A DNA stretch of 28,686 nucleotides. Source: a virus. The stretch is taken from positions 1 to 28,686 of the IMG/VR virus record IMGVR_UViG_3300006903_000024; one strand, written 5' to 3'. The notes under the pieces are model-generated. The model saw only the letters and a list, made by a program, of their open reading frames with translations. It made no database searches and was not told where the DNA came from. Made by a program: the position numbers and the translations under genes. Shown piece after piece: positions 1,323 to 25,100 of this stretch (the first letter of the stretch is position 1; the number at the start of each line of letters is the position of its first letter).

Positions 1323-3065
1323 ATGCCACGGAAACAAGACGCGATGGGAACCCTGTACGCCGACTTCCAGGGCCAGCGGTCCGGAGCGCTGGCGGCGATG
1401 GCCGATGAGACGCGCCTGAAGTTGCAGGCGACCTCGCGCGTCGACATGGCAGGGGCACCACTCAACACGCTCTTCGTGCCCCAGACCTACCAGCAGCGCG
1501 TCCAGCGCGTCTGGTCCGCCTACGGGACCGATCCGCTCTTCCACCGGCTCGTCAACCGCTTCTGTGAGTTCGCGGCCAACGGCTCGCAGTGGGAGGTGCC
1601 CGCCCAGTCCAACGAGACCTCGTGGATCAAGCGGCTGAAGAAGTGGAGCGGCGCGGACACGCGGTCGGATCGAGAAGAGGACGTCTGGAACGTCTGGTCG
1701 GAGATCATCAACCGCGGGATCCCGGGCGTGATCCCGGGCCTCAACGAGTTCGTCCGCTGGGGCGTCAAGCACATGCTGCTGTCGTCGATGTTCGTCCCAC
1801 ACTGGCAGATCGGGGAGGTGAAGGTCGGCAAGCAGACGTACCTGATGCCCACGAAGATGACCTGCTACCCGGCCTCGAGCATCACGCTGCGCCGGCAGCA
1901 GGGGCTCTTCGTCCAGGAAGACATGTTCCTCTTCCGGGCGGTCACGGACCAGTTCACCCCGATGCAGGAAGGGCAATTCAGCGAGGCCCCGTCGTTCACG
2001 GCCCTCGTGAGCAACCCGGCGAACATGATCCAGCTCCCGCCCATCAACCCGCGCGCTGTCACCGGGGAGACCGAGTCGTTCGCGCTCAAGTACAACTGGT
2101 CGCCGGGCGACCTAGTCAGCGTGCGCCGGGGGGCCACCGAGATGATGGGGCACGGGATCTACCCGTTCCCGTCGTTCTCGTCGCTCCTCCCGCAGTTTGC
2201 CATCCGCCAGAAGCTCTTCGCGGCGGATGCGGCGATCCTCGACGGGATCATCAACTTCATCATGATGTACAAGATCGGCGACAAGGACCACCCGCCGAAG
2301 CCGCCCACCCGGACGGCAGGCGGCGTGATCACCACGGACGGCACCATCGAGATGGTGCGCAAGCTGATCCAGGAGGGGCGCACCGGCCCCGCCATGGAGC
2401 TGTTCGTGCCGTACTACGTCGATCTCGTCATCAAGATGCCGGAGACCGGGTCGCTCGTCTCGGACACGAAGTACGGCCCCAGCGCGACCGAGATCCTGCA
2501 AGCCTTCGGCATCTTCTTCTCCCGGACCGCTGCGGGCGCGCGCATCAAGCTGGACGACATCAACACGGCCGGATTCGAGCAGTTCATCGAGGCCATCCGG
2601 CTGCAAATCAAAGCCTTCTTGCAAATGATGGCCGCCCACATCGTCGAGATCAACGGCGGGAAGCTGAAGGTCCCGGCGCAGTGGTCCCCGAACCCGCTCA
2701 ACACCAAGAGCGACGCCTTCATCCAGGAACTCCAGAAGATGAAGGACAAGGGCATGATCTCGGCCAAGACCCTCTTCCGGCACCTCGGGATCGACGACGA
2801 CGTCGAGATCCGGCGGATCGTCCAGGAGTTGGCGGTCGACGCCGACGATGTGTTCAACGAGAACGTGCCGCTCACCTACGTCCAGCAGGCGATCCAGCCG
2901 GACGAGGGCGGCCAGGATCCTAGCGCGCCGGCTCCGGGGGGCGCGCCTCCGCCGAAGGGCGGGACGCCGAAGCCCGCCACCGGCCCGACCGGGCGGACGC
3001 GGAAGACCACCGCGATTCCGCCGACCAAGCAACGCGGACGCCCGAAAGGTTCTGGGAAGGGGTAG
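1323..3065 (+). CDS. Portal protein
   Basis: The portal forms the dodecameric ring at the head vertex through which DNA enters and leaves and onto which the neck is built. The 580-residue length, the position directly after terL, and the C-terminal region support the call: residues near 400-500 (FEQFIEAIRLQIKAFL, then KMKDKGMISAKTLFRHLGID) match the helical crown region typical of portals, where a KGxIS-type turn precedes HLGI. The start follows a purine-rich GGAGAGGGGA site. The last ~60 residues are Pro/Gly/Lys-rich and probably disordered, ending in an RGRPKG motif (3033-3050) that resembles an AT-hook core. The next gene begins 3 bases after the stop. Family membership is inferred mainly from order and overall architecture. 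Confidence 0.82.
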   Translation: MPRKQDAMGTLYADFQGQRSGALAAMADETRLKLQATSRVDMAGAPLNTLFVPQTYQQRVQRVWSAYGTDPLFHRLVNRFCEFAANGSQWEVPAQSNETSWIKRLKKWSGADTRSDREEDVWNVWSEIINRGIPGVIPGLNEFVRWGVKHMLLSSMFVPHWQIGEVKVGKQTYLMPTKMTCYPASSITLRRQQGLFVQEDMFLFRAVTDQFTPMQEGQFSEAPSFTALVSNPANMIQLPPINPRAVTGETESFALKYNWSPGDLVSVRRGATEMMGHGIYPFPSFSSLLPQFAIRQKLFAADAAILDGIINFIMMYKIGDKDHPPKPPTRTAGGVITTDGTIEMVRKLIQEGRTGPAMELFVPYYVDLVIKMPETGSLVSDTKYGPSATEILQAFGIFFSRTAAGARIKLDDINTAGFEQFIEAIRLQIKAFLQMMAAHIVEINGGKLKVPAQWSPNPLNTKSDAFIQELQKMKDKGMISAKTLFRHLGIDDDVEIRRIVQELAVDADDVFNENVPLTYVQQAIQPDEGGQDPSAPAPGGAPPPKGGTPKPATGPTGRTRKTTAIPPTKQRGRPKGSGKG

Positions 3066-3067
3066 CG

Positions 3068-3856
3068 ATGGGCCGAGACGATGTGCTGTGCATGATGCGG
3101 GTGCGCAACGAGGCCCGGTGGATCCGCCGGAGCCTCGAGCGCACGTGGCAGGTGTGCAAGACCGCCGTCGTGTTCGATGACCACTCGACCGACCAGACAT
3201 TCAGTGAGGCCGTCGCGACGATGGGCGCGTCCATCAAGTACGACCAGCACCCCAGTGGGGTCACGGTGCTGACGGACGACCGGGAGCTGCACTGGCTGGC
3301 GTCACCCTTCCAGGACCAGACCGATGAGGTGCGCGACAAGAACCATCTCTGGGAGTACGTGGGCGGGCTGAAGTTCCGTCACGTCCTCTGCCTGGACGGC
3401 GACGAGATGCTCTCCCTTGAGGCCATCCGGCAGTTCGAGAACGCGTGTGGTCGGCTCGAGCAGGGCGGGGCGAGCGTGATCGTCATGCCGTTCATGTACC
3501 TCTGGGACACCGAGCGCTATCGGCGAATCGATGGGGTCTACAACGACATCCGCCACGCCCGGCTCTTCACGATCGACCGCGCCCCGGACTTCCGCTCCGC
3601 GCGCTTCTTTGCCCGTGGCCGTGCGGGCTTCCACTGCGGGAGCATCCCGGAGCACCTCAACATCAACCACTTCGACTTCAACATGCCCGTGATCCACTTC
3701 GGCTATCTCGACGCCGAGCTCCGGGAGCGCAAGCTCGCCTTCTACACGAACCTGGATCCGAACAACGAGGCTGAGGGGTACTACCGGCACATCGTCGGCG
3801 AGGCGAACCATCTGGCGCCCGGCCCCGTCCGGCTGGCCGAGTACATTGACGCGTGA
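3068..3856 (+). CDS. Glycosyltransferase family 2 protein (first of cassette)
   Basis: A predicted GT-A fold enzyme that transfers a sugar from an activated nucleotide donor. The N-terminus reads MMRVRNEARWIRRSLE, the usual GT2 opening strand and helix, followed by a nucleotide-binding FDDHSTDQT segment near residues 37-45 and a metal-binding LDGDEML motif (DxD type) near residue 115-122. At 262 residues it is the length of a single catalytic domain. There is no signal peptide and no membrane segment, so it should act in the cytoplasm. A GGAAGGGG ribosome site precedes the ATG. It opens a run of five overlapping sugar-modification genes placed between portal and protease. Donor and acceptor cannot be read from the sequence. 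Confidence 0.85.
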   Translation: MGRDDVLCMMRVRNEARWIRRSLERTWQVCKTAVVFDDHSTDQTFSEAVATMGASIKYDQHPSGVTVLTDDRELHWLASPFQDQTDEVRDKNHLWEYVGGLKFRHVLCLDGDEMLSLEAIRQFENACGRLEQGGASVIVMPFMYLWDTERYRRIDGVYNDIRHARLFTIDRAPDFRSARFFARGRAGFHCGSIPEHLNINHFDFNMPVIHFGYLDAELRERKLAFYTNLDPNNEAEGYYRHIVGEANHLAPGPVRLAEYIDA

Positions 3857-4587
3857 TCTCCGTCCTGATCCCGTCCCGCACTGATGCGTACCTGGCGCGC
3901 GCACTTGAATCGCTCTTCTGGCACGGCGGCTTCCAGGGCACGGGCCGGCGGATTATCGTCGGCGATAACGGCTTGGCGGAACGTGACCCGCATCCCGCGA
4001 TCGTCTACGTCGACGTTCCCCGGCCCTTCAACTTCGCCCGCGCCATCAATCTCTGTGCGGCCGCTGCCGATCCGACCCACGACCTCCTCATCCTCAACGA
4101 CGATGCACACCCTCTCGACTTCTACTTCCCGGTGGCGATCGAATGCGCTCTCAAATGGGGACGCGAAGAAGGTTACGGACTCCTCAGCCCCCGGATCGAG
4201 GGCGGGGTTGGTAACGACGACCAACGGATGAAGACGCCGATCGGGACGATCAAGCAGACCTTCCGGTCGATCTGCTTCATGGCGGCCGCCATCCCACGGC
4301 ACGTGTGGAATGAGATCGGGCCGCTCGATGAGCGCTTCGACGGCTACGGGTGTGACGATCTCGATTACTCCCGGCGCGTGGTCGAAGCGGGCTACAAGCT
4401 CGGCGTGGCGGGCTGGACGGCGGTGGAGCACGGCTTCCACGATCGGATACAGAGCGGGACGTTCCTGAAGGTGTATGGGCAGCAGACGTACGCGGAAATG
4501 GGGCAACGCGCGCTCAAGATCTTCTTCGACAAGTGGGGCGAAGGCCCCCAACTGGGAGAGTACGAATGCGAACGCACGGGGGAGTGA
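3853..4587 (+). CDS. Glycosyltransferase family 2 protein (second of cassette)
   Basis: A second predicted GT2 enzyme of 244 residues. It begins at a GTG that overlaps the previous stop (GTGA), so translation is probably coupled. Recognisable parts are the opening strand MISVLIPSRTDAYLARALES, a PFNFARAIN segment near residue 56-64, the metal-site LILNDDAHP near residue 77-85, and an acceptor-side block GPLDERFDGYGCDDLDYSRR near residue 156-175, which resembles the G-x-x-DE-x-F-x-G-x-x-DxD pattern of many GT2/GT7-like enzymes. No membrane helix is seen. The sequence is clearly different from the preceding GT2, so this is not a recent tandem duplication. Substrate unknown. Confidence 0.85.
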   Translation: MISVLIPSRTDAYLARALESLFWHGGFQGTGRRIIVGDNGLAERDPHPAIVYVDVPRPFNFARAINLCAAAADPTHDLLILNDDAHPLDFYFPVAIECALKWGREEGYGLLSPRIEGGVGNDDQRMKTPIGTIKQTFRSICFMAAAIPRHVWNEIGPLDERFDGYGCDDLDYSRRVVEAGYKLGVAGWTAVEHGFHDRIQSGTFLKVYGQQTYAEMGQRALKIFFDKWGEGPQLGEYECERTGE

Positions 4588-5165
4588 AGCGGGATCCACG
4601 GGAGTGGACCGAGGCCTGGCAGTTCACGGAGGCCTGGCCGCCGCTCGGCGAAGCGATCCAGCACGCGGCGGGCAGCGACGTCCAGGACGACGTCCCGCTG
4701 CTCTGGGCGCTGGTCTGCGAGGTCGAGCCGAAGCGGATGGTGGAGCTGGGGACCCGGCAGGGCACGAGCACGCGGACGCTACGGCTGGCCGCCGAGCTCG
4801 TGGGGGCTGAGTTCCTGACGATCGATCCGGATCCCGGGTGCCTCGCCTTCATCAAGCCGATCCTGCACCAGCGGTACTGCCGGTTCCTTCAGATGACCGG
4901 GCAGCAGGCCTTCCCGGGGCCGGAGCCGGACTTCCTCTTCATCGACACGGACCCGCACACCTACGAGCAGACCGTGGAGTGGCTGGACACCTACGTCCAG
5001 GTGGCGCTCACGCCGGGCGGGGTGGCCGTCTTCCACGACACCGTGCCCGCGCGGCCGGAGATCCAGGTGGGGCAGGCCGTCCGGGACTGGGTGGCCAAGC
5101 ACGAGGGATACATCTGGCGGGAGATCCCGACGACCTACGGGCTCGGGGTGCTCTGGAAGCCATGA
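4566..5165 (+). CDS. SAM-dependent methyltransferase (class I, Methyltransf_24-like)
   Basis: Predicted class I methyltransferase of 199 residues. Motif I is visible as MVELGTRQGTSTRT, motif II as FLTIDPDPG, and motif IV as PDFLFIDTDPHTYEQ; the later TPGGVAVFHDT strand is typical of the Methyltransf_24 and macrocin/cephalosporin-type sugar or natural-product methyltransferases. The ATG at 4566 is preferred over an upstream in-frame GTG at 4533 because GGGAGAG sits 5 bases before it. The gene overlaps the previous one by 22 bases and runs into the next by ATGA. Its place between GT genes suggests O-methylation of a sugar, which would cap or decorate the glycan; that role is inference. Confidence 0.82.
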   Translation: MRTHGGVKRDPREWTEAWQFTEAWPPLGEAIQHAAGSDVQDDVPLLWALVCEVEPKRMVELGTRQGTSTRTLRLAAELVGAEFLTIDPDPGCLAFIKPILHQRYCRFLQMTGQQAFPGPEPDFLFIDTDPHTYEQTVEWLDTYVQVALTPGGVAVFHDTVPARPEIQVGQAVRDWVAKHEGYIWREIPTTYGLGVLWKP

Positions 5166-5866
5166 GGCGGCTCGCCTTCGTCATCCCGACGATGAACTGC
5201 CTGCACTTCACGCGGCAGGCGATCACCTCGATCGCGGTCCGGCCTGGCGACTGCATCTACGTGATCGACAACGGGTCGACCGACGGAACGCTCGACTGGC
5301 TCGAGGAACAGCGGCGGAAGGGGCGGCCGATCGTGGTCACCGCCTTCGGGCAGAACCTCGGCGTCGCGGCAGCCTGGAACCGCGGGCTCGAGACGGCCTT
5401 CGAGGACGGGCACCTCAAGGCCCTCGTGATGAACAACGACGTGATCCTGGCGGCCGATACCGTTGACGCGCTCGAGCGCGGGTACAACAAGCACCTCGGG
5501 GTGGTCTCCGCCCACAGCGTGGCGGCGATCAACGCGCTGTATCTGGTCGAGCGGACTCCGACCTATCAGCTCCCGGTCGACTACTCGTGCTTCCTGCTCT
5601 CCCGCGCGGTCTATGCCAAGGTGGGGCCGTTCGACGAGGGGTATTGGCCGGCCTACTTCGAGGACCAGGACTGGGACTGCCGGGCGGAGCAGCTCGGCGT
5701 GCCGCGCGGGACGCTGGGCGACGCCGTCACCTGTCACTTCCACAGCCAGACGCTCCACAGCGGCCAACTTCCGGAGCACGCGCACTACTTCGCGAAGAAT
5801 CAGGCGAGGTTCATGGAAAAGTGGAAGGACTACATCCTGGGAGGCCGCCGTGCGCCTGGCCTATAG
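5162..5866 (+). CDS. Glycosyltransferase family 2 protein (third of cassette, rhamnosyltransferase-like)
   Basis: A predicted GT2 of 234 residues. The start ATG overlaps the methyltransferase stop (ATGA); a longer reading frame extends upstream but lies inside the methyltransferase gene. The N-terminus LAFVIPTMNCLHFTRQAI is the Rossmann-like first strand, YVIDNGSTDGTLDWL is the nucleotide-binding turn, QNLGVAAAWNRG is the classic N-x-G-x-x-x-x-x-N-x-G element, and VMNNDVIL carries the NND variant of the metal motif. GPFDEGYWPAYFEDQDWDCR is the acceptor/catalytic-base region. This motif set is typical of the rhamnosyltransferase branch of GT2, but sugar specificity cannot be decided from motifs. 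Confidence 0.87.
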   Translation: MRRLAFVIPTMNCLHFTRQAITSIAVRPGDCIYVIDNGSTDGTLDWLEEQRRKGRPIVVTAFGQNLGVAAAWNRGLETAFEDGHLKALVMNNDVILAADTVDALERGYNKHLGVVSAHSVAAINALYLVERTPTYQLPVDYSCFLLSRAVYAKVGPFDEGYWPAYFEDQDWDCRAEQLGVPRGTLGDAVTCHFHSQTLHSGQLPEHAHYFAKNQARFMEKWKDYILGGRRAPGL

Positions 5867-6938
5867 CGGCTTCTTCTTCGACTCGAGCGGCTACGGGGAG
5901 ATGACCCGGCGCTACCTCTTCGCGTTACTTCAGACCGACGGGCTCGACGTCACGCCGGGGGCGATCCTGGCCGACGGCGGCTGGCAGATCCCTCCGACGG
6001 CGGACCTTCAGATCTTTGGCGGGCTCCGGCGCGTCGGGCCGCCGGACGTCCACGCGCTCTGTGTCACGGGTGCGGACCTCGCGGGCATTCAGATTCAGGA
6101 GATCCCGCCGTGGATCCCGCGCGTCGGGCTCATGTGCTGGGAGACCGATCGCCTCCACCCGACCACGCTCGCCGGGTGCCAGTCGGTCAAGCGGGTGATC
6201 GTGCCGTCGCAGCACAACGCGGCGGTGTTCGAGCGCGCGGGCCTCAAGGCCGAGGTCGTGCCGATCCCGGTGGAGGTGCCGCGCTTCATCGACGAGCTGC
6301 CCTTGCAGGGCATCGACGACGTCGGCGAGGAGACCTACATCTTCTACAGCCTGCTCACCTGGCAGGACCGGAAGAATCCGTTCGGGCTGATCGCGGCGTT
6401 CTGCCAGGCGTTCACCGATCGCGACGACGTCATGCTCGTGCTCAAGGTGAGTGGCCCCGATGCCGACAAGGCGGTGGCGCAGGCCGCCGGGTCCGCGAAC
6501 GCCGTTGTGCAGGCGATGGGGCTGTCGGATGCCCCCACGATCCGCGTGATCGGCGGGCGGATGAGCCCCGCGCATCTCTGGGCGCTCCATCAGCGCGGGC
6601 AGTGCTACGTCTCGCTGGCGAAGGGGGAAGCCTACGGGATTCCGATGCTCGACGCGGCGGCGGTCGGCAATCATGTCATCTCGACAGGGTACGGCGGGCA
6701 ACTCGATTTCCTGCCGCCAGCGAACTCGAGCTTCGTCCGCTACCGCATGACGCCAGTGATGCAGCGCTACTCCCACTTCAACGGCCGGATGCTCTGGGCG
6801 GAGCCGGATGTGCTGCACGCCGCCGAGCTCATGCACGCCGCGTTCATGCGCGGCCGGCAGCCGAAGATCATCCCCGACCTCACCCATCTTTTGCCTTATA
6901 ACATCGGCACTAAGCTCGCGGAGGCCCTCGCCGTATGA
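5850..6938 (+). CDS. Glycosyltransferase family 4 protein
   Basis: A predicted GT-B fold, retaining-type enzyme of 362 residues. The GTG at 5850 has GGGAGG 5 bases upstream and overlaps the previous gene by 17 bases; the open frame continues upstream but only as overlap. The N-terminal lobe begins MRLAYSGFFFDSSGYGEMTR, with the glycine turn expected near the acceptor site. VPSQHNAAVFERAG leads into the second lobe, where LLTWQDRKNPFGLIAAF, LVLKVSG and GEAYGIPMLDAAAVG lie. The last is the donor-binding E-x7-E signature but with Asp at the second position, a conservative change. It is the last enzyme of the cassette and runs into the helix-turn-helix gene by ATGA. Confidence 0.85.
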   Translation: MRLAYSGFFFDSSGYGEMTRRYLFALLQTDGLDVTPGAILADGGWQIPPTADLQIFGGLRRVGPPDVHALCVTGADLAGIQIQEIPPWIPRVGLMCWETDRLHPTTLAGCQSVKRVIVPSQHNAAVFERAGLKAEVVPIPVEVPRFIDELPLQGIDDVGEETYIFYSLLTWQDRKNPFGLIAAFCQAFTDRDDVMLVLKVSGPDADKAVAQAAGSANAVVQAMGLSDAPTIRVIGGRMSPAHLWALHQRGQCYVSLAKGEAYGIPMLDAAAVGNHVISTGYGGQLDFLPPANSSFVRYRMTPVMQRYSHFNGRMLWAEPDVLHAAELMHAAFMRGRQPKIIPDLTHLLPYNIGTKLAEALAV

Positions 6939-7135
6939 CGAGTGGTACGAGACTCCCAGCGCCGCACTTCTATCGCGTCGATGAGGTCGCCCGGATCCTC
7001 CGGATCTCGCTCGCGACGGCCTACCGTCGGATCGAGGACGGCAGCATTCCCTCACGGATCATCGGCGGCGTGATCCGGGTGCCGATCGTGGAATTTCGCC
7101 GCGCGTTCCAACTGGACAGTCAAGAGCCCCAGTAA
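6935..7135 (+). CDS. Small helix-turn-helix protein (excisionase/HTH_17-like)
   Basis: A 66-residue protein that is almost entirely one winged-helix domain of the MerR/excisionase type: YRVDEVARILRISLATAYRR is the helix-turn-helix and GSIPSRIIGGVIRVPIVEF is the wing. Such proteins bind DNA as repressors, activators or recombination directionality factors. Its ATG overlaps the GT4 stop (ATGA), so it is co-translated with the sugar cassette. It stops just 6 bases before a tandem 9-base repeat and a promoter, which makes those repeats plausible binding sites for it (inference). No integrase is in the window, so a role in excision is not supported here. Confidence 0.82.
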   Translation: MTSGTRLPAPHFYRVDEVARILRISLATAYRRIEDGSIPSRIIGGVIRVPIVEFRRAFQLDSQEPQ

Positions 7136-7200: not shown

Positions 7201-7410
7201 ATGGCACTCACCGGATACGCGCCGTCGCCACACACCGGCGTGCGACCTCCTGAAGAAGTGACCGCCGTGACGAGCACCGTGTTTCATTCTTCCGATCTCC
7301 CGATGCTGATCGAGTTCAACGGGCGGAAGTACTTCCTGAGCGAGACCAAGAAGGGCGGTTTGCTCTTGAACGGAGCCGTCACCATCGGAGGGCAGACACT
7401 CCGACGATAG
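7201..7410 (+). CDS. Small hypothetical protein in the regulatory island
   Basis: A short reading frame of 69 residues from the ATG at 7201. Alternative in-frame starts are GTG at 7267 (47 residues) and ATG at 7303 (35 residues), and none has a clear Shine-Dalgarno site. If transcription begins near 7199, the 7201 ATG would be almost leaderless. The C-terminal part, reading LIEFNGRKYFLSETKKGG and onward, has the G/C-rich third positions of the neighbouring genes and looks like real coding sequence; the N-terminal part is less convincing. No family recognised. It is alone between a promoter and a terminator, so the transcript might instead act as RNA. Confidence 0.45.
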   Translation: MALTGYAPSPHTGVRPPEEVTAVTSTVFHSSDLPMLIEFNGRKYFLSETKKGGLLLNGAVTIGGQTLRR

Positions 7411-7460: not shown

Positions 7461-7501
7461 AAAGCCAGCGAGCCGAGAACACCCGGCCCGCTGGCTTTTT
7501 T
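7461..7501 (+). terminator. Rho-independent terminator
   Basis: AAAGCCAGCG (7461-7470) pairs perfectly with CGCTGGCTTT (7489-7498). After one mismatch a further 4-bp stem (7472-7475 with 7484-7487) closes an 8-base loop. A run of six T follows at 7496-7501. It would end transcripts from the sugar cassette and from the promoter at 7163, just before the protease-scaffold ribosome site (GGAGG at 7507-7511), so the capsid genes need read-through, antitermination or their own promoter. Confidence 0.85.
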
Positions 7502-7518: not shown

Positions 7519-9339
7519 ATGCGTAAGCAATTCCGGACCGCGACGATGAGCCACGACGAGCTGCGGTCTGCGCTCTGGAGCGAGCTCGACGAGGAGTACC
7601 CCGGACAGCCGGGCGAGTACGGCTCGTGGTGCGCGCTCATGGACGTCTACGACGGGTTCTGCATCGCCAAGATCGCCGTCAACGGCGTGAAGGCGCTCTA
7701 CAAGGTGCCCTACACGATCGGCCCCGATGACAGCGTCGAACTGGGGGAGCCGGTCAACCTGCTCGAGGCCGACGCCAAGGTCCTGGAGGAGCGGGTCGAG
7801 TTCCGGGCGAGCACGGTGGCCTTCGGGGCGGATGCCCAGGCGCTCCTGACCGAGGTGACGGAGAACAACCCGCTCTTCTCCACCATCAAGAACTCGCCGA
7901 ACACCCACCTCGTCGTCTTCGATCTCACCTCCGTCGGCCGGCCCAGCAAGCACGCGGGCAAGCTGAAGTATCAGCTCGCCACGAAGGGGCTCGAGGCCGC
8001 GCTGCCGACGCTGATCTCGAAGCCGATCCACATCACGACCGACCTGGACGCCCACTTCGAGGCGGGCAAGGCTCCGAAGCCGATCGGGACGTTCCTCGGC
8101 GGCGTGGGGATCCCGAACGACGACGGCACCATGACCCTCCGGGCGATCGGCACGCTCTGGAAGAACGACTTTCCGGACGAGGTCGAGGAGATCCAGAAGA
8201 AGCAGGCCCAACTCGGGGCCAGCTACGAGATCCAGTATCTCGCGGCGAGCGCCGACCGCATCGGGGCCAACGTCATCGAGATCGGCCACTACGAGTTCTC
8301 CGGCGGGGCGATCCTGAAGAAAGCCTCGGCCGCGCACCCCGAGACCCAGTTGCTCGTGGCCTCGGCGGATCCGGATACGACCTTCGACGTGATGGACGAG
8401 GAGGAGGTCTCCCGCCTCCTCGCGTACCTGAAGGGCGCGACCTCATTCAGCACCGCAGACAAGCTGTCCTACCAGCAGCGCGAGAACCTGTCCGACAGCG
8501 ACTTCGCACTCATTCAGACGGTCGACGGCAAGAAGGTGCGTCGATTCCCCATCCAGGACGAAGCCCACCGGAAGAACGCGTGGGCGCGGTTGTCACAGGC
8601 GAAGGGCCTCTCCGAAGCCGAGCGTAGCGAGGTGGCCAACAAGATCATCTCGAAGGCGAAGGCCGCGGGAGACGACTGGGCAAAGGGCTACACGAAGTCC
8701 AACGGCAAGTGGACCCAGACCAAGGAGGGAGGAGCCAGCATGAAATACCCCGGGATCCCCGCAGAGCAGGAGGCCACCGTCGACGGCATCATCGCCGCGC
8801 TTCGAGCCGAGTACACCAAGCAGCTCGATGAGCTGAAGGCGCAGATGGCCGAGGACACCGACCCGCAGAGCAAGAAGAACATGGCCGCGAAGCTGACGGA
8901 GCTGGCGGCGAAGATCGCCGAGCAGGACAAGGCGATCGAGGCGGCCAAGACCAAGGAAGTCGAGGCGGCCAACAAGATCGTCGAGCTGACCGCGTCGGTC
9001 GAGGGCACCAAGGCCGAGCTCACGGTCAAGGCCACGCAGCTCGCCGAGATCGAGACCAAGACCAAGCACGCCGAGACCGTGGCGAGCCTCAAGGCGGACT
9101 ACGGCCTGACCGACGAGCAACTCAAGGAGGAGAAGCGCGCGGCCCTGGTCACCAAGCTGGCCGAGGCCAAGGTCCCGCTGACTTCCGCCGAGTTCAAGGA
9201 GTTGATCTCCGGCGGCAAGGGCGTCGTCCCGCTGATGGCTGGTCAGGGCCAGGGCGAGGACGGGCTGCGCAAGCCCATCGACGAGAAGGCGATCGCGTCG
9301 TCGTTCCCCGCTGCCACCGGCCCCAGGCGGGTGCGGTAG
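7519..9339 (+). CDS. Prohead protease fused to scaffold protein
   Basis: A 606-residue capsid assembly protein. Residues ~10-80 form a small domain often seen at the start of phage capsid-assembly proteins. Residues ~110-280 resemble a herpesvirus/S78-like prohead serine protease: His171 (in SKPIHITTD) or His179 and Ser235 (in LGASYEIQY) are candidate catalytic residues. Residues ~315-390 (LSDSDFALI to NKIISKAKAAG) match the DUF6582-type module found in phage proteases. Residues ~408-606 are Lys/Glu/Ala-rich coiled coil, as in scaffolds. The start has GGAGG 7 bases upstream. Expected role: scaffold shapes the procapsid, the protease then cleaves scaffold and itself so DNA can enter. A strong internal start at 8740 would yield free scaffold. 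The catalytic residues are proposed by eye. Confidence 0.8.
   Translation: MRKQFRTATMSHDELRSALWSELDEEYPGQPGEYGSWCALMDVYDGFCIAKIAVNGVKALYKVPYTIGPDDSVELGEPVNLLEADAKVLEERVEFRASTVAFGADAQALLTEVTENNPLFSTIKNSPNTHLVVFDLTSVGRPSKHAGKLKYQLATKGLEAALPTLISKPIHITTDLDAHFEAGKAPKPIGTFLGGVGIPNDDGTMTLRAIGTLWKNDFPDEVEEIQKKQAQLGASYEIQYLAASADRIGANVIEIGHYEFSGGAILKKASAAHPETQLLVASADPDTTFDVMDEEEVSRLLAYLKGATSFSTADKLSYQQRENLSDSDFALIQTVDGKKVRRFPIQDEAHRKNAWARLSQAKGLSEAERSEVANKIISKAKAAGDDWAKGYTKSNGKWTQTKEGGASMKYPGIPAEQEATVDGIIAALRAEYTKQLDELKAQMAEDTDPQSKKNMAAKLTELAAKIAEQDKAIEAAKTKEVEAANKIVELTASVEGTKAELTVKATQLAEIETKTKHAETVASLKADYGLTDEQLKEEKRAALVTKLAEAKVPLTSAEFKELISGGKGVVPLMAGQGQGEDGLRKPIDEKAIASSFPAATGPRRVR
8740..9339 (+). CDS. 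Nested in-frame scaffold protein (internal start)
   Basis: Within the protease-scaffold gene an ATG at 8740 is in the same frame and has an AAGGAGGGAGGAG ribosome site (8722-8734) 5 bases upstream, stronger than that of the full-length start. The 199-residue product MKYPGIPAEQEATVDGI... contains only the coiled-coil part. Internal, in-frame scaffold translation is known from lambda (C and Nu3), where it supplies scaffold in excess of protease. The placement exactly at the domain boundary supports a real start rather than chance. Confidence 0.68.
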   Translation: MKYPGIPAEQEATVDGIIAALRAEYTKQLDELKAQMAEDTDPQSKKNMAAKLTELAAKIAEQDKAIEAAKTKEVEAANKIVELTASVEGTKAELTVKATQLAEIETKTKHAETVASLKADYGLTDEQLKEEKRAALVTKLAEAKVPLTSAEFKELISGGKGVVPLMAGQGQGEDGLRKPIDEKAIASSFPAATGPRRVR

Positions 9340-9888: not shown

Positions 9889-10890
9889 ATGTCGCCGCAA
9901 GGCTACAGGACGATGGATGGAATCGATCTGAACGACATCTGGTACGGGGGCGCGGGCATTGCGAATGCCATCGACCTCTACCGGCGGGTCGAGCTACCGC
10001 TGATCAACATGCTGGCGATGCCCTGGCCCGAGCAGATCATGAAGTACGGCATCAGCCAGAAGAACGGCTTCCAGGTCCTCGCGCCGAGCGAGCGGCCGAG
10101 CCGCAAGACCGTCGACGTGGCGACGACCTACCCCACCGTGACCAAGTACGGCTACGGCGTGGGCACGGATCTCGACACGCTGCGCCGGTCGACCGGCCGA
10201 GAAGTGATGATGGACCTGAACCGCCCGATGCAGGAGGACCCGGAAAACGTCCTCATGCAGTTCCTCCAGGTGATGTTGTCCGGCGCGGACGCGCAGAGCA
10301 GCAACTCGCTCTACTCGTTCTACAACGGGCAGTTCGCCTCCGAGGAGAAGATCACCGCGCCGCCCCAGTACCAGCAGAACACGTTCGTGTCCGGGCACTC
10401 GCACTACATCGTGAAGAACGGCTCGCTCGCCTTCACGGACATCACCGACGTGAAGCAGACGATCCGGGAGCACGGGCACAAGGGCAGCATCATGGCGTTC
10501 TGCAACAGCGACACGGTCCAGAAGCTCGAGGATCTCGCGTCGTTCGTGCAGTCCGCCATCGTGCGGTCGCCGCTGACCGACCAGACCGCGGTGGAGGGCT
10601 TCAACGACGTCTTCACCGTGTTCGGGGTGACCTTCCACTCCACCGAGATGATCCCGAACGGCTACATCCTCTTCGTCGAGGGCAGCACCGCCGAGACGGG
10701 GCGGCCGCTGATCTTCTTCGAGCCGGCCAACATGCGCGGCCTGACCCTGCACCCGGGTCCGATGAACGACTACCCCCTGATCGAGTCCTTCTGGGATCGC
10801 TGGATGGGCGTGAAGGTCTTCCAGCGCGGGGCCGGAGCCGTGGTGCAGTTCGGCCTCGGCGCGAGCTACATCACGCCGACCCTGACCTAG
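9889..10890 (+). CDS. Major capsid protein (HK97-fold expected)
   Basis: A 333-residue protein in the canonical slot after protease, scaffold and decoration. Its size and order fit an HK97-fold shell protein. Segments such as QNGFQVLAPSERPSRKTVD in the first third, VKQTIREHGHKGSIMAFCNS in the middle (a spine-helix/P-domain-like helix followed by a strand) and the final MGVKVFQRGAGAVVQFG strand are typical of this fold. There is no N-terminal delta-domain of the HK97 gp5 type, consistent with a separate scaffold. AGAGGAGAA precedes the ATG. A strong hairpin follows the stop. I did not recognise a specific named family. Confidence 0.78.
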   Translation: MSPQGYRTMDGIDLNDIWYGGAGIANAIDLYRRVELPLINMLAMPWPEQIMKYGISQKNGFQVLAPSERPSRKTVDVATTYPTVTKYGYGVGTDLDTLRRSTGREVMMDLNRPMQEDPENVLMQFLQVMLSGADAQSSNSLYSFYNGQFASEEKITAPPQYQQNTFVSGHSHYIVKNGSLAFTDITDVKQTIREHGHKGSIMAFCNSDTVQKLEDLASFVQSAIVRSPLTDQTAVEGFNDVFTVFGVTFHSTEMIPNGYILFVEGSTAETGRPLIFFEPANMRGLTLHPGPMNDYPLIESFWDRWMGVKVFQRGAGAVVQFGLGASYITPTLT

Positions 10891-11382: not shown

Positions 11383-13506
11383 ATGCGCTTGCTGATCGTC
11401 TCCGACAGCCCCGCGATCCGCTCTGGCCTCGGCCGGGTGACGCGGGAGCTCGCGCAGCGGTTCGCCGACGACAACTTCGAGGTGGCGGTCGCCGGATGGT
11501 TCGATCTCCACGGCAGCCTCGACGAGGAGTACGACTACGCGGTCTACCCGGCCGTGAAGCCCGCGCCGGAGTCCCTCGCCCGGACCATCGCCCACGTCGA
11601 CCCCCAGGTGATCCTCGCCATCGGGGATCCGTGGGACTTCGCGTGGCTGGCCGATCAGCGTGCGGCCGGCGCGCCCTGGCGGCTCGTCGGGTACCTCAAC
11701 ATCGAAGGTCGTCCGCTGCCGCTGGCGTGCGAGCGGATCCTGGACGCCTTCGACGTGCTCGTGACCACCAGCGAGTTCGGTGCGCAGGCCGTCGGCCGTC
11801 CGAGCGTCCGCGCGGTGCACCACGGCGTCGACATGGCCACCTTCCGGAAGCTGGGGGAGCGGAAGGGGGAGTTCTGTGGCCGGGATCTCGCCCGGACCTT
11901 CCTGGTGATGCTCAACGGCCAGAACACGCCCCGGAAGAACTACCCGACGGCGCTGCGCGGCTTCCGGCTCTTCGCCGAGGGCAAGCCGGACGTCCTGCTC
12001 TACGCCAACACGGCGGTGAGCACCGGGCCGGACGACCAGCCGGGACCGGACCTGCGCCAGACTCTCGTGGGCCTCGGCGTCGACGAGGACGACCGCGTGT
12101 GGTTCAACCCCGACAACCGGGGACCGCTCGCCACGGTGAGCGACGACCACGTCAACAAGATCTACAACATGGCGAGCGTGCTCCTGGTCACCTCCTGGGC
12201 CGAAGGCTTCTGCCTGCCGGTCCTCGAGGCCATGGCCGCCGCCGTCATCCCCGTGGCCCCGGCGGACTACTCGATGCCGGAGTTGCTCGCCGAGGATCGC
12301 GGGATCCTCTACCCCGTCGCCGCCCGGGTCGAGAACACCTTCGGCATGCAGGTGGCCGTGGTCTCGGATTGGGACGTCGCCGAGGCGCTCGAGCGGGCCT
12401 ACCGGGAGTGGAAGGACGATCGGGCGGCCTGGGACCGTCGGCGGGTCCGGTGCACGGCCTACGCCCGGACGAAGAACTGGAACGCGACCTACCAGGGCCT
12501 CAAGGCGGCGATGTCCGCGTGGACGCCGGGTCGGGTCGCGATCGGACGGCCGGTGAGCCCGCAGGCGCGCGCGGCCGCGCGCGCGGCTGCCGCGCGGCAC
12601 CCGGGGGCGCTGGGCGTCCTGAAGCTCGGCGGCCTCGGAGACCTGCTCCAGACCACTCCGGTGATCGCGGCCGCTGCCGCCAAGACCGGCCGGAAGGTGG
12701 TCGTCTTCACGAATCAGCCCGCGCCGGTCTTCGAGGAGAACCCGGCCGTGGCCGAGGTCGTCGCCATCGAGGCCATGCCCCAGCAGGTGGCCCTGGAGAG
12801 CCTCGCGGATGCGTTCGAGGCCTTCTACGACCTCCGGTATGTCTCCTGGGCCTACGGGGCGGAGAAGCCCAGCGCGTTCGCCGAGCGGCATCGGTGGTTC
12901 TACGACCACTGGACCGACTCGAACCCTCGCCTGCACAGCCTCGGGATGCACAGCACCCGGGTGATGCTGACGAGCCTCGATCTCGAGAGCGACTCCATCC
13001 GGCCCATCTACAAGCCGCGCCAGAAGTGCGAGATCCCCGCCGAGCCGTACCTGGCGGCGGCGAGCGGCGTCGGGGTCATGGGGGGGCTGAAGCGGTGGCC
13101 CGCCGAGGCCTGGGCCAAGCTCCTGGCGGGCATCGGGGTGCCGGTCGTGCAGGTCGGCGGCTCGGAAGACGAGCCGCTGCCCGGAGCTGTCGACCGGCGG
13201 GGCGCGAGCCTGCCCCAGACCGCGTGGGTGCTCGAGAACGCCGCCGGCCTCGTCGCGGTCGAGGGCGGGATGGTGCACCTCGCCGCCGCCACCGGGATCC
13301 GCGTGGCCGTGATCTTCGGCCCGACGCCGGTCGAGACCTTCCTCTACCCCGGGCACTGGGCGGCGGTGACCCGACGGTGCACGCCGTGCTGGGGAGCCGA
13401 GCCGAACTGGTCGCAGGCCGTCTGCGCGGTCGCCGAGCCGGTGTGCCGGAACTTCCCCAACCCCGACACGGTCCTCGATCAGGTCAAGGCGTGGCTGCAT
13501 GACTGA
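11383..13506 (+). CDS. Two-domain glycosyltransferase: GT4 fused to GT9 (heptosyltransferase-like)
   Basis: A 707-residue protein with two complete GT-B enzymes. Residues 1-~375 are GT4: SDSPAIRSGLGRVTREL at the N-terminus, HHGVDMATFRKLG, LNGQNTPRKNYPTALRGF, and a full E-x7-E donor motif in AEGFCLPVLEAMAAAV. An Ala/Arg-rich linker at ~390-405 leads to residues ~406-707, which resemble GT9 (ADP-heptose:LPS heptosyltransferase family): GVLKLGGLGDLLQTTPVIAA is the family's opening nucleotide-binding strand, and SLPQTAWVLENAAGLVAVEG plus HLAAATGIRVAVIFGPT is its C-terminal donor region. No membrane segment is present. The stop overlaps the next gene by 8 bases, keeping it in the structural operon. 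The two domains could add successive sugars to one glycan; donor and acceptor are unknown. Confidence 0.85.
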   Translation: MRLLIVSDSPAIRSGLGRVTRELAQRFADDNFEVAVAGWFDLHGSLDEEYDYAVYPAVKPAPESLARTIAHVDPQVILAIGDPWDFAWLADQRAAGAPWRLVGYLNIEGRPLPLACERILDAFDVLVTTSEFGAQAVGRPSVRAVHHGVDMATFRKLGERKGEFCGRDLARTFLVMLNGQNTPRKNYPTALRGFRLFAEGKPDVLLYANTAVSTGPDDQPGPDLRQTLVGLGVDEDDRVWFNPDNRGPLATVSDDHVNKIYNMASVLLVTSWAEGFCLPVLEAMAAAVIPVAPADYSMPELLAEDRGILYPVAARVENTFGMQVAVVSDWDVAEALERAYREWKDDRAAWDRRRVRCTAYARTKNWNATYQGLKAAMSAWTPGRVAIGRPVSPQARAAARAAAARHPGALGVLKLGGLGDLLQTTPVIAAAAAKTGRKVVVFTNQPAPVFEENPAVAEVVAIEAMPQQVALESLADAFEAFYDLRYVSWAYGAEKPSAFAERHRWFYDHWTDSNPRLHSLGMHSTRVMLTSLDLESDSIRPIYKPRQKCEIPAEPYLAAASGVGVMGGLKRWPAEAWAKLLAGIGVPVVQVGGSEDEPLPGAVDRRGASLPQTAWVLENAAGLVAVEGGMVHLAAATGIRVAVIFGPTPVETFLYPGHWAAVTRRCTPCWGAEPNWSQAVCAVAEPVCRNFPNPDTVLDQVKAWLHD

Positions 13507-18841: not shown

Positions 18842-19170
18842 ACGACACCGAGGAGATCGTCGCGCACTACGCGGACTTCCCGCGTCCGACGCGGCTCGAG
18901 CGGCGGGATCCGGCGTACTTCTCGCAGTGGTTGCAGGCGACGAGGGAAGAGGAAAAGCAGCGAGCCAAGCGTAAGGGCGCGCCGCCCGAGGAGTTCAAGG
19001 CGCTGGGCTCTGGCGGGGAGGAGGACCAGGAAGCGTGGGAGCAGTGGTACGGCTACGTCGACTGGATCTGCGAGGAGCAGCCCGACGATCTCGAGTACGG
19101 GCGGATCAAGGACTCCGATGACGAGGACTATGTCCCGGCCCCCGATGAGCAGGAAGTGTTCGGTGAGTGA
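18017..19170 (+). CDS. Tail assembly chaperone frameshift product (gpGT-like)
   Basis: Ribosomes that slip one base back at T TTT TTA (18724-18730) leave the frame-0 gene after 238 codons and read on in the -1 frame to the TGA at 19168-19170, giving a fusion of about 384 residues. The -1 part, ~146 residues, begins TIWRVAQSGHRYPW and is rich in acidic and aromatic residues (WEQWYGYVDWICEEQPDDLEY). It has no credible start codon of its own near the slip site, so it can be made in full only by frameshifting. The stop overlaps the tape measure ATG by one base (TGATG). In lambda the small amount of GT fusion relative to G is essential for tail assembly. Confidence 0.82.
18724..18730 (+). promoter_or_regulatory. 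Programmed -1 frameshift slippery site T TTT TTA
   Basis: The heptamer TTTTTTA fits X XXY YYZ with frame-0 codons TTT TTA and -1 codons TTT TTT, so both tRNAs can re-pair. It lies in the only region where the two long frames can be joined. A possible nested stem, CCCAG (18746-18750) with CTGGG (18768-18772) around CCGG-ACA-CCGG, starts 15 bases after the heptamer and may stimulate slipping. Confidence 0.85.
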
Positions 19171-22100
19171 TGGCTGAAGGCCAGTTCACCCCGGATCTGC
19201 TGCTCACCGTCGGGGCCGACGTCTCGGCGCTGCGCCAGCAGCTTGCCAACATCTCGCGCGAGCTGGGCATCCCGCCGGTCAACGTCCAGGTCGAGGCAAA
19301 CGTCCAGCAGATCCGCGAGGCCCAGCAATCCTTCAACGATCTCCAGCGGCAGATCGAGGCCGCGAAGAAGTCCCTCTCTGAACTGAAGGCGCAGATCGCG
19401 GGCGGCCTCTATGACGTCCGGCTCGACAAGGCCGCGACGGTCGCCTTCCAGCAGAACGAGGAGCTGAAGCGGAAGGAAGCGCAGAAGACCTTCGATTTCA
19501 TGCGGGGCCAGGAGGAAAAGCAGGCGGCCCTACAGGCGAAGGACGTCCTCACCGAAGGGCGCGCCTTCGCCGCCAACGAGCAGTTCAAGCGGACCGAGAT
19601 TGAGAAGACCGCGATCGCGCAGCAGCGGCTCGGCGACGCCAATGCCGCCCTGACCGCGCGGAACTTCACCGGCCAACTCTCGCAACTCTCGCAGATCGCC
19701 AACGCCTACGAGAAGATCGCCGCGCTCCAGATCAAGGCCTCGGCGACCGGGACGGTGATCCCGCCGCAGCTTCAGCAGCGCATCGGGACCTTCACGTCGG
19801 TCCTTGCGGGGGAACAGCAGGGCTTGCTGGGGGGCGCAGAGGCCGCGAGCCCCCAGGCCGCCGCCGCGCTCAAGGCGACCGCCGAGAGCATCCAGCGCGA
19901 CCTGAAGGCCATCGTGGGGGCGGCAGGGGATGCCGACGGCGCGGTCTCGGGCTTCTTCGGCAAGCTCGGCCGGTATGCCCAGATCGCGGCGGGCCTCACG
20001 ATCATCTACACGGTCATGCGCCAGATCGGCGCGGCGGCCGAGGAGTTCGTCGAGGTCGACCGGCAACTCGCCAAGATCGCCGCCACGATGGACAACGGGG
20101 CCGATCGGGCGACCGTGCTCCGCGACTCCTACGACCTGATGGTGCAGGCGAACCAGCGCCTCGGCGTCAGCTTCACCGAGGCGAGCAAGGTCGTCTTCGA
20201 GTTGGAGAAGGCCCTCGGCAACAACTCCGAGCAGGTCCGGGCGGCGTTCCTGCCCGCGCTGACGCTCGCGTCCCTCGGCGAGGGCAATCAGACAGAGATC
20301 CTGCGGACCCTCGTCGGGCTCTACAAGCTGTTCGGGGACACGCTCACCAGCGCGATCACGCCGCAGGAGAAGTACCTCCAGATCTCCGACAAGCTGATCG
20401 GCTCGGCGGCCGCGTCAATCCAGGACATCGACGGCTTCCGGACCGCGCTCCAGAACGTCGCGCCGGTGGCGAAGGCGGCCGGCGTCTCGCTCGACGTCCA
20501 GTTGGCGGCCATCGTCCAGTTGACGAACGGTATGCAGTCGGCCAGCCGGGCGGGCACCGGCTTCCGTCAACTCCTCGTTGACCTCCAGACGCGACCGGGC
20601 GCGATCTCGAAGGCCTTCGGCATCGACTTCGATCCGAACGCCCCGCTCAACGCGACGAAGCTCCTGGACGAGGTCATCAAGAAGATCCGGGATCTGGGGA
20701 CCGACAGTCTCAAGACGCAGGCCCTCATCAACTCGGCCTTCCCGGACAAGCGCGCGACCCTCGCCCTCGAGACACTGGTCGAGCTCTACCCGCAGTACTC
20801 CAAGGCCCTCCAGGACGTCGCCGACTCCGCCGGTCGGACGCAGAAGGCCCAGGAGGAACTCAACAACACCATCAGTGCGGCGGCCGGACGGTTCAAGGGG
20901 GCACTCTTCAACGAGATCACCCTGACCGTCAACGCGATCTCCGGAGTCAAGCCGGGGCAAGCGGACGGCCTCGTTGGCCTCTTCGACATCGTCACGCGGG
21001 CCGCGATCATCGCGGGCCAGGAGCTCCGCAAGTACCTCGGCGACGTCAAGGCGCTGATCGATGCAGCCAACCGCGCGACCGGCGGGGCGGCGGGGGCGGC
21101 CACGCAGGGGGCGGCTGGCTCGAACATCACCGGCTCCGCGCTCCTGGGCTTCGCGTCACCGCAAGCGGCCTACCGGGGCGTCCTGCCGCCGTCTCAGGCC
21201 CGCCTCGACGCCGAGGCGGCGGCGCAGGCCAAGCAGCAGCAGGATCTCGCGCGCGCCAACGCGCAGGCCCTTCAGAATGCGCAGAACATTGAGCTCCAGC
21301 CGGGCGATCAGTCCGGCCAGCTCAAGAAGATGATCGATCTGACGGCGGAACTCGCCAAGCAGAAGGCGATCCTCAAGAACCAGATCGAGTTGGAGTTTAC
21401 GGTCAACGATAAGTCGCTCTCGTACGCGACGCGCATCGCAGCGGCCGACGCGCTCCTGGCCGAGAAGACGCGCGAGCGGCAGATCGCCGAGAAGAACTAC
21501 GACACCACCGCCTCACTGACCCCGAAGGACATCGCGGCGCTCGACGAGTACAAGGGCAAGCTCCAAACCGCCCTGGAGGCCGAGCGGCGCGCGCGGTCGC
21601 AGGCGACGGAGCTGCGTCGGGAGGACGCGAACGAGTCCATCGAGATCAGCCAGAAGCTCGCCGCGCAGACCGAGGCCGACCAGAAGAAGGTGGTCGAGCT
21701 CTTCGCCAAGTTCACGACCGAGCAGAGCAAGCTCAAGGAGATCTCGCCACTTGAGCGCGCCGTCGACGAGTACAAGAAGCTCGGCGACGTGCTCAACTCG
21801 GCCCAATTCGCGCCGCTCTCGCCGGCCCAGTTCTCCGAGATCAACAAGATGTACATCCAGATCGGCGAGGCCATCAATCGCTACTGGGTGGACCCGCTCC
21901 TGGCGATCACCCAACTCGACTACGAGTCCGGGTGGGACAAGTTCAACAAGGCGCTGAAGAAGAACATCGAGGACGCCGAGAAGCTCCGCGGGATCACGAG
22001 CGCCGTGACCGGCAAGACGGCCCCGACCCCCGAGGAGGTGACCCAGCGGTCTCTCGAGCGCCAGGTCGGTGTCGACGCAGTCACCGACCAGATCCTCAAG

Positions 22101-25100
22101 CTCCGGGCTGAGATTGGGTACACCCGCGAAGAGTGGATCGCCAACATCGCGGCCATGAAGGCGGGGGCGAAGGACTTCGCCGATCTCCTGCGGCAGATCA
22201 ATGATGAGTCGCTGCCCCAGGCGGATCGGGACAAGAAGCGCGCGGCGGCGACGATCATCACGACGAAGTTGCTCCCGCAGAGTGATGAGGCGACCTCCCT
22301 TCAGATCCAGAAGCAGACCCAGGACGAGCAGAACCGGCTGGACGGCCTCCGGGAAGGCTTCGGGCGGGTGGGCGAGGAGCTGAACCGCTACATCCTCGCG
22401 CGGGCCAACTGGCGCAAGTCCTACGACGACCTGACGCCGAAGCAGCAAGAAGAGATCGACCTCCTCGCCCGGACCACCGAGGAGATGAAGAATGCGGCGG
22501 CGGCCGCCGGCCTCGTCGCGCTCGGGTTCTCGGCGACGGACGCGAACTCGATCGCGGGGCAGGCCGGGGCCGTCCTCGAGCGCCAGAAGCAGATCCAGGA
22601 CGGCATCAACGCCCTCAAGGTGCTCAACGATCAGCAGAAAGTCGCCCGCGATCAGCAGGAACAGGCGACCCAGGAGATCGCGAAGGCCGCCGGGCAGGTC
22701 GGGACCTACTTCGTCTCGGCGCTCCGGCAGGCGGCGAACGCCGCAGGCGACTTCTTCGACGACATCAAGACCCTGGCGCAGGACACGGCCAAGGCCATGA
22801 CGTCGGCCTTCTCGGACTTCTTCTTCAACTCCTTCCAGGACAAGCTGAACGCGGGCAAGGACGCGTGGAAGAGCTTCCTCGACTCGATGCAGCGCGCGCT
22901 CGCCGACTTCATGAGCAAGCAACTCGTGAAGAGCTTCCTGAACATCCTGACGGGGACGGGGGACAGCGGCACCGGGACCGGGATCCCCGGTGCGGCGAAC
23001 CTCGTGAGCGGGGTCGGGAGCGGCTTCGGCAACATCGTGTCCAACTTCCAGGCCGGCGGCCTCTCCGCCGCGCTCTTCGGCCTGCCCCCGACGACGCCGT
23101 CGACCGTCAGCACGTCGCCGCCAGGGGAGCCCGGGGCGGCGGGTGGCCCGAACTCGACCTCCGGGGTGCCTCGTGGCACGACCGGCATCGTGGGCTCCGG
23201 CGGCAACATCAGCAAGGATCTCTCTTCGGCTGGGGCGGTCGCCGCCGCGTACACGGCGTCCCAGTCGGTCCTGAAGCTCACCAGCGAGCTCTCGACGCAG
23301 CGCGACCGCAATTCGGGGACCGGCGGCCTCGCCGGGACGGCGGTCGGCGGGATCATCGGCTCGCTCTTCGGAGCCACCGCGATCGGGGCGGGCGCGGGCG
23401 GGCTCATCGGCAGCTTCCTGGGCGGCCTCTTCGGCAGTAACACGCCACCGGCAGGCAAGTTCGACGAGCTGTCCCGGAGCATCTCGACCGTTCAGACCGC
23501 CCTCGAGGCCGCCGTCAAGTCCTCGGCGACCTTCACGGATCTCTACAACACCATCCTGGGCTTCCAGGGCGGCGGGGCGCTCGCGGCGGCCACCCGGCAG
23601 CCGGTTCAGCTCGCGGTCGGGGGCCAATCGGTCAGCAACCTCACCCAGGAGCAGTTCCTCACCGCGCTGCGGGCCAACCCCGCGTCCCTCACGGCCAGCG
23701 TCCAGGCGGGCGTGTCGCCGGATCTCCTGGGGCCGCTCAACCAGGAGGTCGTCCAGACCATCCTGGCCAAGGTTGCCGCGCTCGACGACATCAACCGGCA
23801 GATCAGCCAGACGATCGCGGAGATCTCCGCCGAGGCGGTCTCGCCGGCGGCGACCGGCATCGCCAATCTCGAGACCCTGAAGGAGCAGGCGGTCAACTTC
23901 CGGGCGACCGTCGATCAGCTCATCGCGGGCGAGCAGGCGCAGGTGGCCTCGCTCGAGAGCCTGCTCGCGACCACCACGGATCCGGCCCAGATCCTCTCCT
24001 ACACGACCCAGATCAAGAAGCTGATCGAGGATCGGTACCAGAACGAGACGCAACTCGTCCAGCAGTTCGCCGGGCAACTCGATTCGCTCGCGACGAGCCT
24101 CAAGAGCGTCAGCAAGTCGATCGACGACCAGATCTTCCAGCTTCAGCTCTCCAACTTCGGCCCGACGAACCCGCTCCAGGGCTTCCAACTCGCGCAGGGC
24201 CGGTTCGAGGCCGCCAAGTCGGCCTTCCAGGCGAGCCCGACGCCGGAGAACGCGCAGGCGCTCCAGGCCCTCGTCGACCCGCTCCTGAAGGCGGCGAGTG
24301 ACGTCTTCACCCGGCCGTCGCCGGAGTACCGGGCGATCTACGACGAGGTGATCGCGACCCTCGGCGACGTCAAGGTCTCGGTCGACCAGCAGGCGAACGA
24401 CATCCAGGACGCCCTCAAGGCCGCGCTGGGCGACTCCGTCAGTATCCAGGACCTCACCCAGAAGAACACCGCCTCGATGGCCTCCGACATGAAGTCGCTC
24501 CTCGCCATCGTGTCCGCGCAGGCGGCGGCGGCGGGGATCAACCTCAATCTGGGAGCCGGGCTCCTCACCGGGCAGAACTTCCCGTTCCCGACTGGCCAGG
24601 TGGTGGCCCCCACGGGGCCGACGCCGCAGGGCGGCAACCAAACCGCCTCGACGGCGGCCGCGTTCGGCGTCCTCGGGGCACTCGGTGGCGGGGCGAGCCT
24701 CCTCGGTGGGGCCGTGTCCCTGTCCGACAAGATCGGCCTGACCGCGTGGCTCCAGCAGACGTTCCCGAGCATCTTCGGCGTCAAGTACAACGACACGATG
24801 CTGCCCGGGAGCGGGGGCGCGCCGGGGGCGGGCGCGGGCGGGGTCACGGTCACGAATCCGCAGTTTGCCCTGGGCTCGGCGGACTTCCAGAGCGCGCTGG
24901 CGAGCGCCATGGAAGCGATGAACCTGCAACTTACCATCCCGAACATCAACCTCAACTTCGGGAACCTGGGCTCGTTCAGCTTCTCGGACCTGGGGAGTCT
25001 CGACACCAACTTCAGCGACATTCGCGCGTTCCAGTCCGGCGGCCATGTGCCCGGCATGGGCGTGGGCGACATCGTCCCGGCCATGCTCGAGCCCGGCGAG

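Follow-up and report, generated by a model that had tools for sequence, protein, structure and literature searches.

Five sugar-enzyme genes beside the portal gene

We analysed a viral record of 28,686 bases (IMGVR_UViG_3300006903_000024, hereafter the window) in which five consecutive genes, predicted to encode four glycosyltransferases (GTs) and one methyltransferase, follow a putative portal gene. The original prediction had described this cassette as an overlapping five-gene run inside the head operon. Its coordinates and overlaps are exact, and the location among the head genes is borne out as far as position goes: adjacent frames share GTGA at 3853-3856, 22 bases at 4566-4587, ATGA at 5162-5165 and 17 bases at 5850-5866. 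An alternative GTG start of the methyltransferase gene at 4584 would give a 4-base overlap with the preceding gene, GT2b, but the ribosome site (GGGAG) of the ATG at 4566 is better. From left to right, the cassette consists of:

3068..3856, + strand: GT2a, GT-A-type glycosyltransferase (motifs, low-confidence fold matches; the weakest of the five calls)
3853..4587, + strand: GT2b, GT2-type glycosyltransferase (homolog in a relative, motifs, profile links)
4566..5165, + strand: class I methyltransferase, Methyltransf_24 (PF13578)
5162..5866, + strand: GT2c, GT2 glycosyltransferase (PF00535, phrog_29879)
5850..6938, + strand: GT4 glycosyltransferase (phrog_2170, PF00534)

Two of the five proteins match Pfam families above the curated cut-off: the methyltransferase matches PF13578 (Methyltransf_24, E 1.6e-11), in line with the Methyltransf_24-like enzyme originally named, and GT2c matches PF00535 (Glycos_transf_2, E 1.2e-13) together with phrog_29879 (E 1e-17). 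GT2b itself has no Pfam match. Its homolog in G002 (IMGVR_UViG_3300002503_000012, 45.6 kb), the one other virus of the group in which our scans found a complete slot between portal and protease genes, matches Glyco_transf_7C (8e-4), a GT2b profile finds GT2c-type proteins, and NDD and DD-x-D motifs are conserved. Profile match and acidic motifs thus place GT2c in the predicted GT2 family, and homolog, motifs and profile links place GT2b there too. The GT4 protein is assigned to the GT4 family by its match to the PHROG glycosyltransferase phrog_2170 (E 6e-10) and a below-cut-off match to PF00534 (Glycos_transf_1, E 6.6e-5); it has E-x7-D in place of E-x7-E, a substitution conserved in G002, and a conserved GEAxGIPxLDAAAxGN. 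GT2a has no sequence-family match in Pfam or PHROG. Its DDxSxD and LDGDE (DGD) motifs are conserved in G002, and the best Foldseek matches of its model, with a predicted local distance difference test (pLDDT) score of only 45, are GT-A enzymes (PcManGT and SpsA, E 7e-4). Judged by Pfam and PHROG matches, motifs, G002 homologs and this low-confidence model, the proposed count of three GT2 enzymes and one GT4 is likely right, GT2a being the least secure. For GT2a, GT2b and the methyltransferase there was no match in the phage collection and nothing significant in sequence searches against solved structures. None of the cassette enzymes has transmembrane segments.

On the left, the cassette is bordered by the putative portal gene, which was identified by synteny, from its place between terL and the head genes. 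The portal protein has no Pfam or PHROG match and shares 55.7% identity with its positional counterpart in G002; the preceding terL matches phrog_2 (E 9e-15). On the right, an ATGA overlap joins the GT4 gene to a gene for a helix-turn-helix (HTH) protein, 55% identical to the protein at the matching place in G002, and a further 383 bases, holding a small open reading frame (ORF) and a hairpin with a T-run, separate the HTH gene from the putative protease gene. The proposed location between portal and protease therefore agrees with the gene order, with the qualifications that the HTH gene and 383 bases intervene and that the protease assignment is unconfirmed: the protein is 54% identical to its G002 counterpart, but neither profile nor fold searches support the assignment, and its model (pLDDT 49) gave no meaningful fold match. 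The flanking features are:

1323..3065, + strand: putative portal gene, bordering the cassette on the left
6935..7135, + strand: HTH_17/excisionase-like DNA-binding protein gene (PF12728, E 3e-10)
7201..7410, + strand: small conserved ORF of 69 aa, 39% identical over 59 aa to an equivalently placed ORF in G002
7461..7501, + strand: terminator-like hairpin and T-run, just 5' of the protease ribosome site
7519..9339, + strand: putative head protease/scaffold gene (position, coiled-coil scaffold-like tail, adjoins the capsid gene)
9889..10890, + strand: major capsid protein gene, candidate acceptor (phrog_3990, E 9e-39)
11383..13506, + strand: two-domain GT4-GT9 glycosyltransferase of 707 aa, downstream of the capsid gene with one small ORF between them

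A tblastn search with the capsid protein matched 89 actinophage records. Further downstream, at the place of the tape measure gene, a single ORF of 2783 aa (window 19167-27518) is very long for a siphovirus-type tail gene.

Conservation in a distant relative and further sugar genes

The terL, portal, protease and capsid proteins of G002 are 54-58% identical to those of the window (terL and portal about 56%), and G002 retains the order of GT2a (39% identity), GT2b (37%), GT2c (38%), GT4 (46%), the HTH gene (55%) and the GT4-GT9 fusion (50%). The methyltransferase of the window has no homolog in G002. Additional genes in the G002 slot encode two GT2-type enzymes, a GT4, a LAGLIDADG endonuclease, a Polysacc_synt_2 protein of the nucleotide-sugar 4,6-dehydratase type (E 1e-65) and two RMNT_CmcI (rhamnosyl-O-methyltransferase-type) proteins (5e-42 and 3e-64). 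Third-position GC is mostly ~0.9 in the window and ~0.6-0.7 in G002, in cassette and structural genes alike. Because four of the five cassette genes are conserved (37-46%) despite this shift, they can be taken as coding and selected rather than as chance frames. Conserved order and identity, with a composition that matches each genome, further indicate that a core set is old and under selection in both viruses while another part has been exchanged. The terL gene of G002 (L185 6441-9191) encodes 916 aa and carries an intein-like insertion of ~1.15 kb relative to that of the window.

An assembly artefact was ruled out. The whole window is contained, at 99.997% identity, in a second record of 107,417 bases (IMGVR_UViG_3300050505_000309); three near-identical contigs (99.9%) confirm the terL-portal region of G002, and one of them, L195, covers the slot up to GT2b.

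The slot might be a hotspot for cargo genes, in which case the cassette would have no close tie to virion assembly. The differences between the two slots, with the window methyltransferase missing from G002 and other enzymes and the LAGLIDADG endonuclease present there, would fit such a hotspot, as would the actinophages with related capsid proteins (Hawkeye, Fowlmouth and Hiddenleaf), which have no sugar genes annotated in this slot. However, core order and fusion are kept over deep divergence (37-50% identity) with motifs intact, composition matches each genome and the pattern recurs in several phage lineages. We regard a hotspot as improbable, and arrival as recent cargo is disfavoured by composition and conserved order.

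The original prediction described a cassette of five enzymes, but these are not a self-contained set, since three further elements of the same virus probably belong with the cassette. The GT4-GT9 fusion (phrog_2170, E 2.5e-25; Glycos_transf_1, 1.8e-8; Glyco_transf_9, 7.9e-6), which also weakly matches heptosyltransferase models, lies outside the coordinates originally given and probably acts in the pathway of the cassette. The 107-kb contig has, upstream of terL, a second run of sugar and methyl genes, encoding an MptE/Maf-like plus methyltransferase protein, a fusion of Methyltransf_24 with a GT-type domain, an FkbM-type methyltransferase, a weakly matching 2OG-Fe(II) oxygenase-like protein (E 0.0023) and a GT8-like protein that matches phrog_28018 (4e-54). 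Elsewhere in this contig lies an RMNT_CmcI-type (rhamnosyl O-methyltransferase) gene (E 8e-53), which, like the upstream cluster, probably goes with the cassette. Further features of the 107-kb contig and of G002 are:

L011 3316-8344, minus strand: second sugar/methyl run, 107-kb contig, upstream of terL
L011 8796-12668, minus strand: 1290-aa protein, mostly 'SVLSQQVSVLS' heptad-like repeats, fibre-like
L011 2543-3316, 13525-14769 and 15998-16684 (minus strand) and L185 3043-6051: 'VxVxDDxPATEAVTVRIPMxV' repeat proteins

The 1290-aa protein, near the second sugar cluster, is a possible glycan acceptor. The last group is a repeat-protein family, with a motif like the one given, that adjoins terL both in the window virus and in G002; the members that were searched had no Pfam match. 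The 107-kb contig also encodes a phage integrase (E 2e-16, L006 8252-9499), so the phage may be temperate, and a Dam-type DNA methyltransferase (E 7e-8, L006 10769-11299).

Probable glycosylation of the virion and competing interpretations

The gene content, the overlaps, the conserved order in the relative and the like arrangements in other phage lineages are observed directly. In our judgment, they probably reflect a soluble cytoplasmic glycosylation line that builds a methylated glycan on a virion protein. GT2a, GT2b, GT2c and GT4, probably with the GT4-GT9 fusion, would attach sugars sequentially to one virion protein, the likeliest acceptors being capsid, decoration and tail-tube proteins; the methyltransferase would O-methylate the added sugars. 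If co-expressed with terL and portal, the enzymes would be present in the cell during head and tail building. We infer this timing of expression, along with the order of steps, the sugars, the acceptor and the methyl target. Glycan assembly on the virion, as first proposed, remains the best explanation because of the G002 synteny, the use of the same slot in cluster O mycobacteriophages such as Firecracker, a cluster with reported virion glycosylation (see below), and the absence of accessory genes for a host-surface or DNA role; the accompanying idea that the slot is an unusual one is not supported. Consistent with a virion glycan are also the dehydratase and the two rhamnosyl-O-methyltransferase-type genes in the G002 slot, the GT4-GT9 gene beside the capsid gene, the lack of transmembrane segments in the enzymes, the lack of a GtrA or flippase gene, and the presence of homologs of GT2c and of the GT4 half of the fusion in the head regions of S-CBS4, phiPsal1 and, for GT4 only, Mae-JY09. 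Moreover, GT2c-type and recognised capsid genes lie no more than 5 kb apart in 19 of 21 viral contigs that have both, against 10.0 expected under uniform placement.

The enzymes might alternatively remodel the core or O-antigen of the lipopolysaccharide (LPS) on the host surface, which could, for instance, prevent superinfection or keep progeny from sticking to debris. LPS heptosyltransferases form the GT9 family, and the fusion has weak matches to heptosyltransferase models; the dehydratase and RMNT-type genes of G002 occur in surface-polysaccharide pathways too, and the integrase points to a possibly temperate phage. A host-surface role, however, normally needs a flippase or a GtrA-type protein, and neither a GtrA-type (PF04138) nor a Wzx-type membrane protein was found in the 107-kb contig or in G002, both of which may be incomplete. 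The cassette enzymes, which lack transmembrane segments, are encoded among the head genes and not in a conversion locus, and the arrangement recurs in several lineages. Remodelling of the host surface thus appears unlikely to us; GtrABC-type O-antigen conversion was rejected for want of PF04138 and of transmembrane segments.

A third possibility is that the substrates of the GTs are modified bases in the phage DNA. This role needs a hydroxymethylated base, and no gene of the thymidylate-synthase/dCMP-hydroxymethylase family (PF00303) was found in either genome, in searches whose controls worked. Nor was there a Tet/JBP match (PF12851), in a search that had no positive control and with a 107-kb contig that may be incomplete. 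DNA hypermodification was rejected on these missing accessory genes and is in our view very improbable, even with the weak 2OG-Fe(II) oxygenase-like gene of the upstream cluster and with the precedent of phage GTs that hypermodify DNA (Pyle 2024, as cited in PMC12619734).

Several considerations weigh against virion glycosylation. The terminator-like hairpin may part the cassette from the capsid genes. Its sequence, AAAGCCAGCGAGCC, is common to the window and G002 together with the T-run (T6), and the region in the window folds better than shuffles (z -2.9); a simple terminator scan did not list the 7461-7501 hairpin. If it terminates, it would set low-level genes (terL, portal and the enzymes) apart from high-level genes (protease and capsid). 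A single transcript from the cassette into the capsid gene is a possibility only, and the late expression of the cassette is likewise presumed. Since there is no detectable homology to the Firecracker enzymes, function there is not transferable by homology. GT9 and Maf-like domains are also found in enzymes whose substrates are LPS or bacterial proteins. Pattern scans of the species-genome collection returned no capsid or portal relative that would point to a host. Finally, many of the 21 contigs counted above are related to one another, and the figure of 19 describes a pattern, not 19 independent events.

More tentatively, this phage group may encode an unusually long virion-glycan pathway of ~10 or more enzymes around terL, portal and capsid, building a methylated deoxy-sugar oligosaccharide coat, with an exchangeable portal-protease slot that alters the glycan between relatives. 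The count takes in the GT2s, GT4, GT4-GT9, MptE/Maf-like and GT8-like proteins, the FkbM-type and RMNT-type methyltransferases and the G002 dehydratase. This broader version is possible, but we do not yet lean towards it. As the G002 set can include both sugar-nucleotide synthesis and sugar O-methylation, the phage could dictate its own glycan instead of borrowing one.

Comparison with known phage systems

Cluster O mycobacteriophages (Corndog gp35-38, Firecracker gp33-36 and Dylan gp32-35) likewise have a methyltransferase and three GT-type genes between portal and protease. In Firecracker and Dylan, with which we made the comparison, the portal gene is followed in overlapping frames by an O-methyltransferase gene, the three GT-type genes and the capsid protease gene, so that such a cassette in this slot is not as unusual as had been claimed (PMC4351075). 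Unlike in the window, the cluster O methyltransferase comes first, there is no GT4 gene, and the capsid gene is not followed by a GT4-GT9 fusion. BLASTP and phmmer found no significant match between the window and Firecracker enzymes. All four cluster O enzymes were found in infected cells and not in caesium chloride (CsCl)-purified virions, and modification of the capsid was proposed (PMC4351075). According to two later papers, which cite Freeman 2023, Che8, Corndog and Myrna carry glycans on capsid and tail-tube proteins, and Corndog gp38 is called essential for glycosylation (PMC12363180; PMC12619734). Going by its predicted enzymes, the cassette would work like a Corndog-type virion-glycosylation set without being a member by descent.

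Related arrangements are found in other lineages. Synechococcus phage S-CBS4 has a GT4, a GT2 and a methyltransferase (gp014-gp016) between portal and capsid genes, of which gp015 is a GT2c homolog and gp014 a homolog of the fusion's GT4 half; this set is shorter than that of the window and has another methyltransferase type. A literature search on cyanophage capsid glycosylation found no paper. Pontimonas phage phiPsal1 has a GT4, a methyltransferase and a GT2 in the head region (genes 010-012), its GTs being homologous to the GT4 half of the fusion and to GT2c, but these three genes are sited after the capsid gene, and the methyltransferase gene is on the opposite strand. Together with Firecracker and Dylan, S-CBS4 and phiPsal1 rule out a cassette unique to this phage. 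Mae-JY09 carries a homolog of the fusion's GT4 half downstream of its capsid gene. Two genes beside the capsid region of podovirus ctDrO704 (MW202512) are homologous to genes of the upstream cluster, one (41%) to the methyltransferase half of g12 and the other (53%) to g17; no counterpart of the five-gene cassette is annotated there, no dedicated search having been made.

If virion glycosylation is the correct reading, it is not confined to mycobacteriophages, and similar head-region enzyme sets are present in phages of cyanobacteria, of a marine actinobacterium and of uncultured hosts. It would then bear on phage escape from antibodies, re-adsorption and predation, and would provide a genomic signature to predict glycosylated virions in cultured phages. 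Sugar genes in the portal-protease slot, and their use for the virion, are already known from some mycobacteriophages; what is new here is a set without detectable sequence kinship to theirs that is larger, more dispersed and kept in a distant relative.

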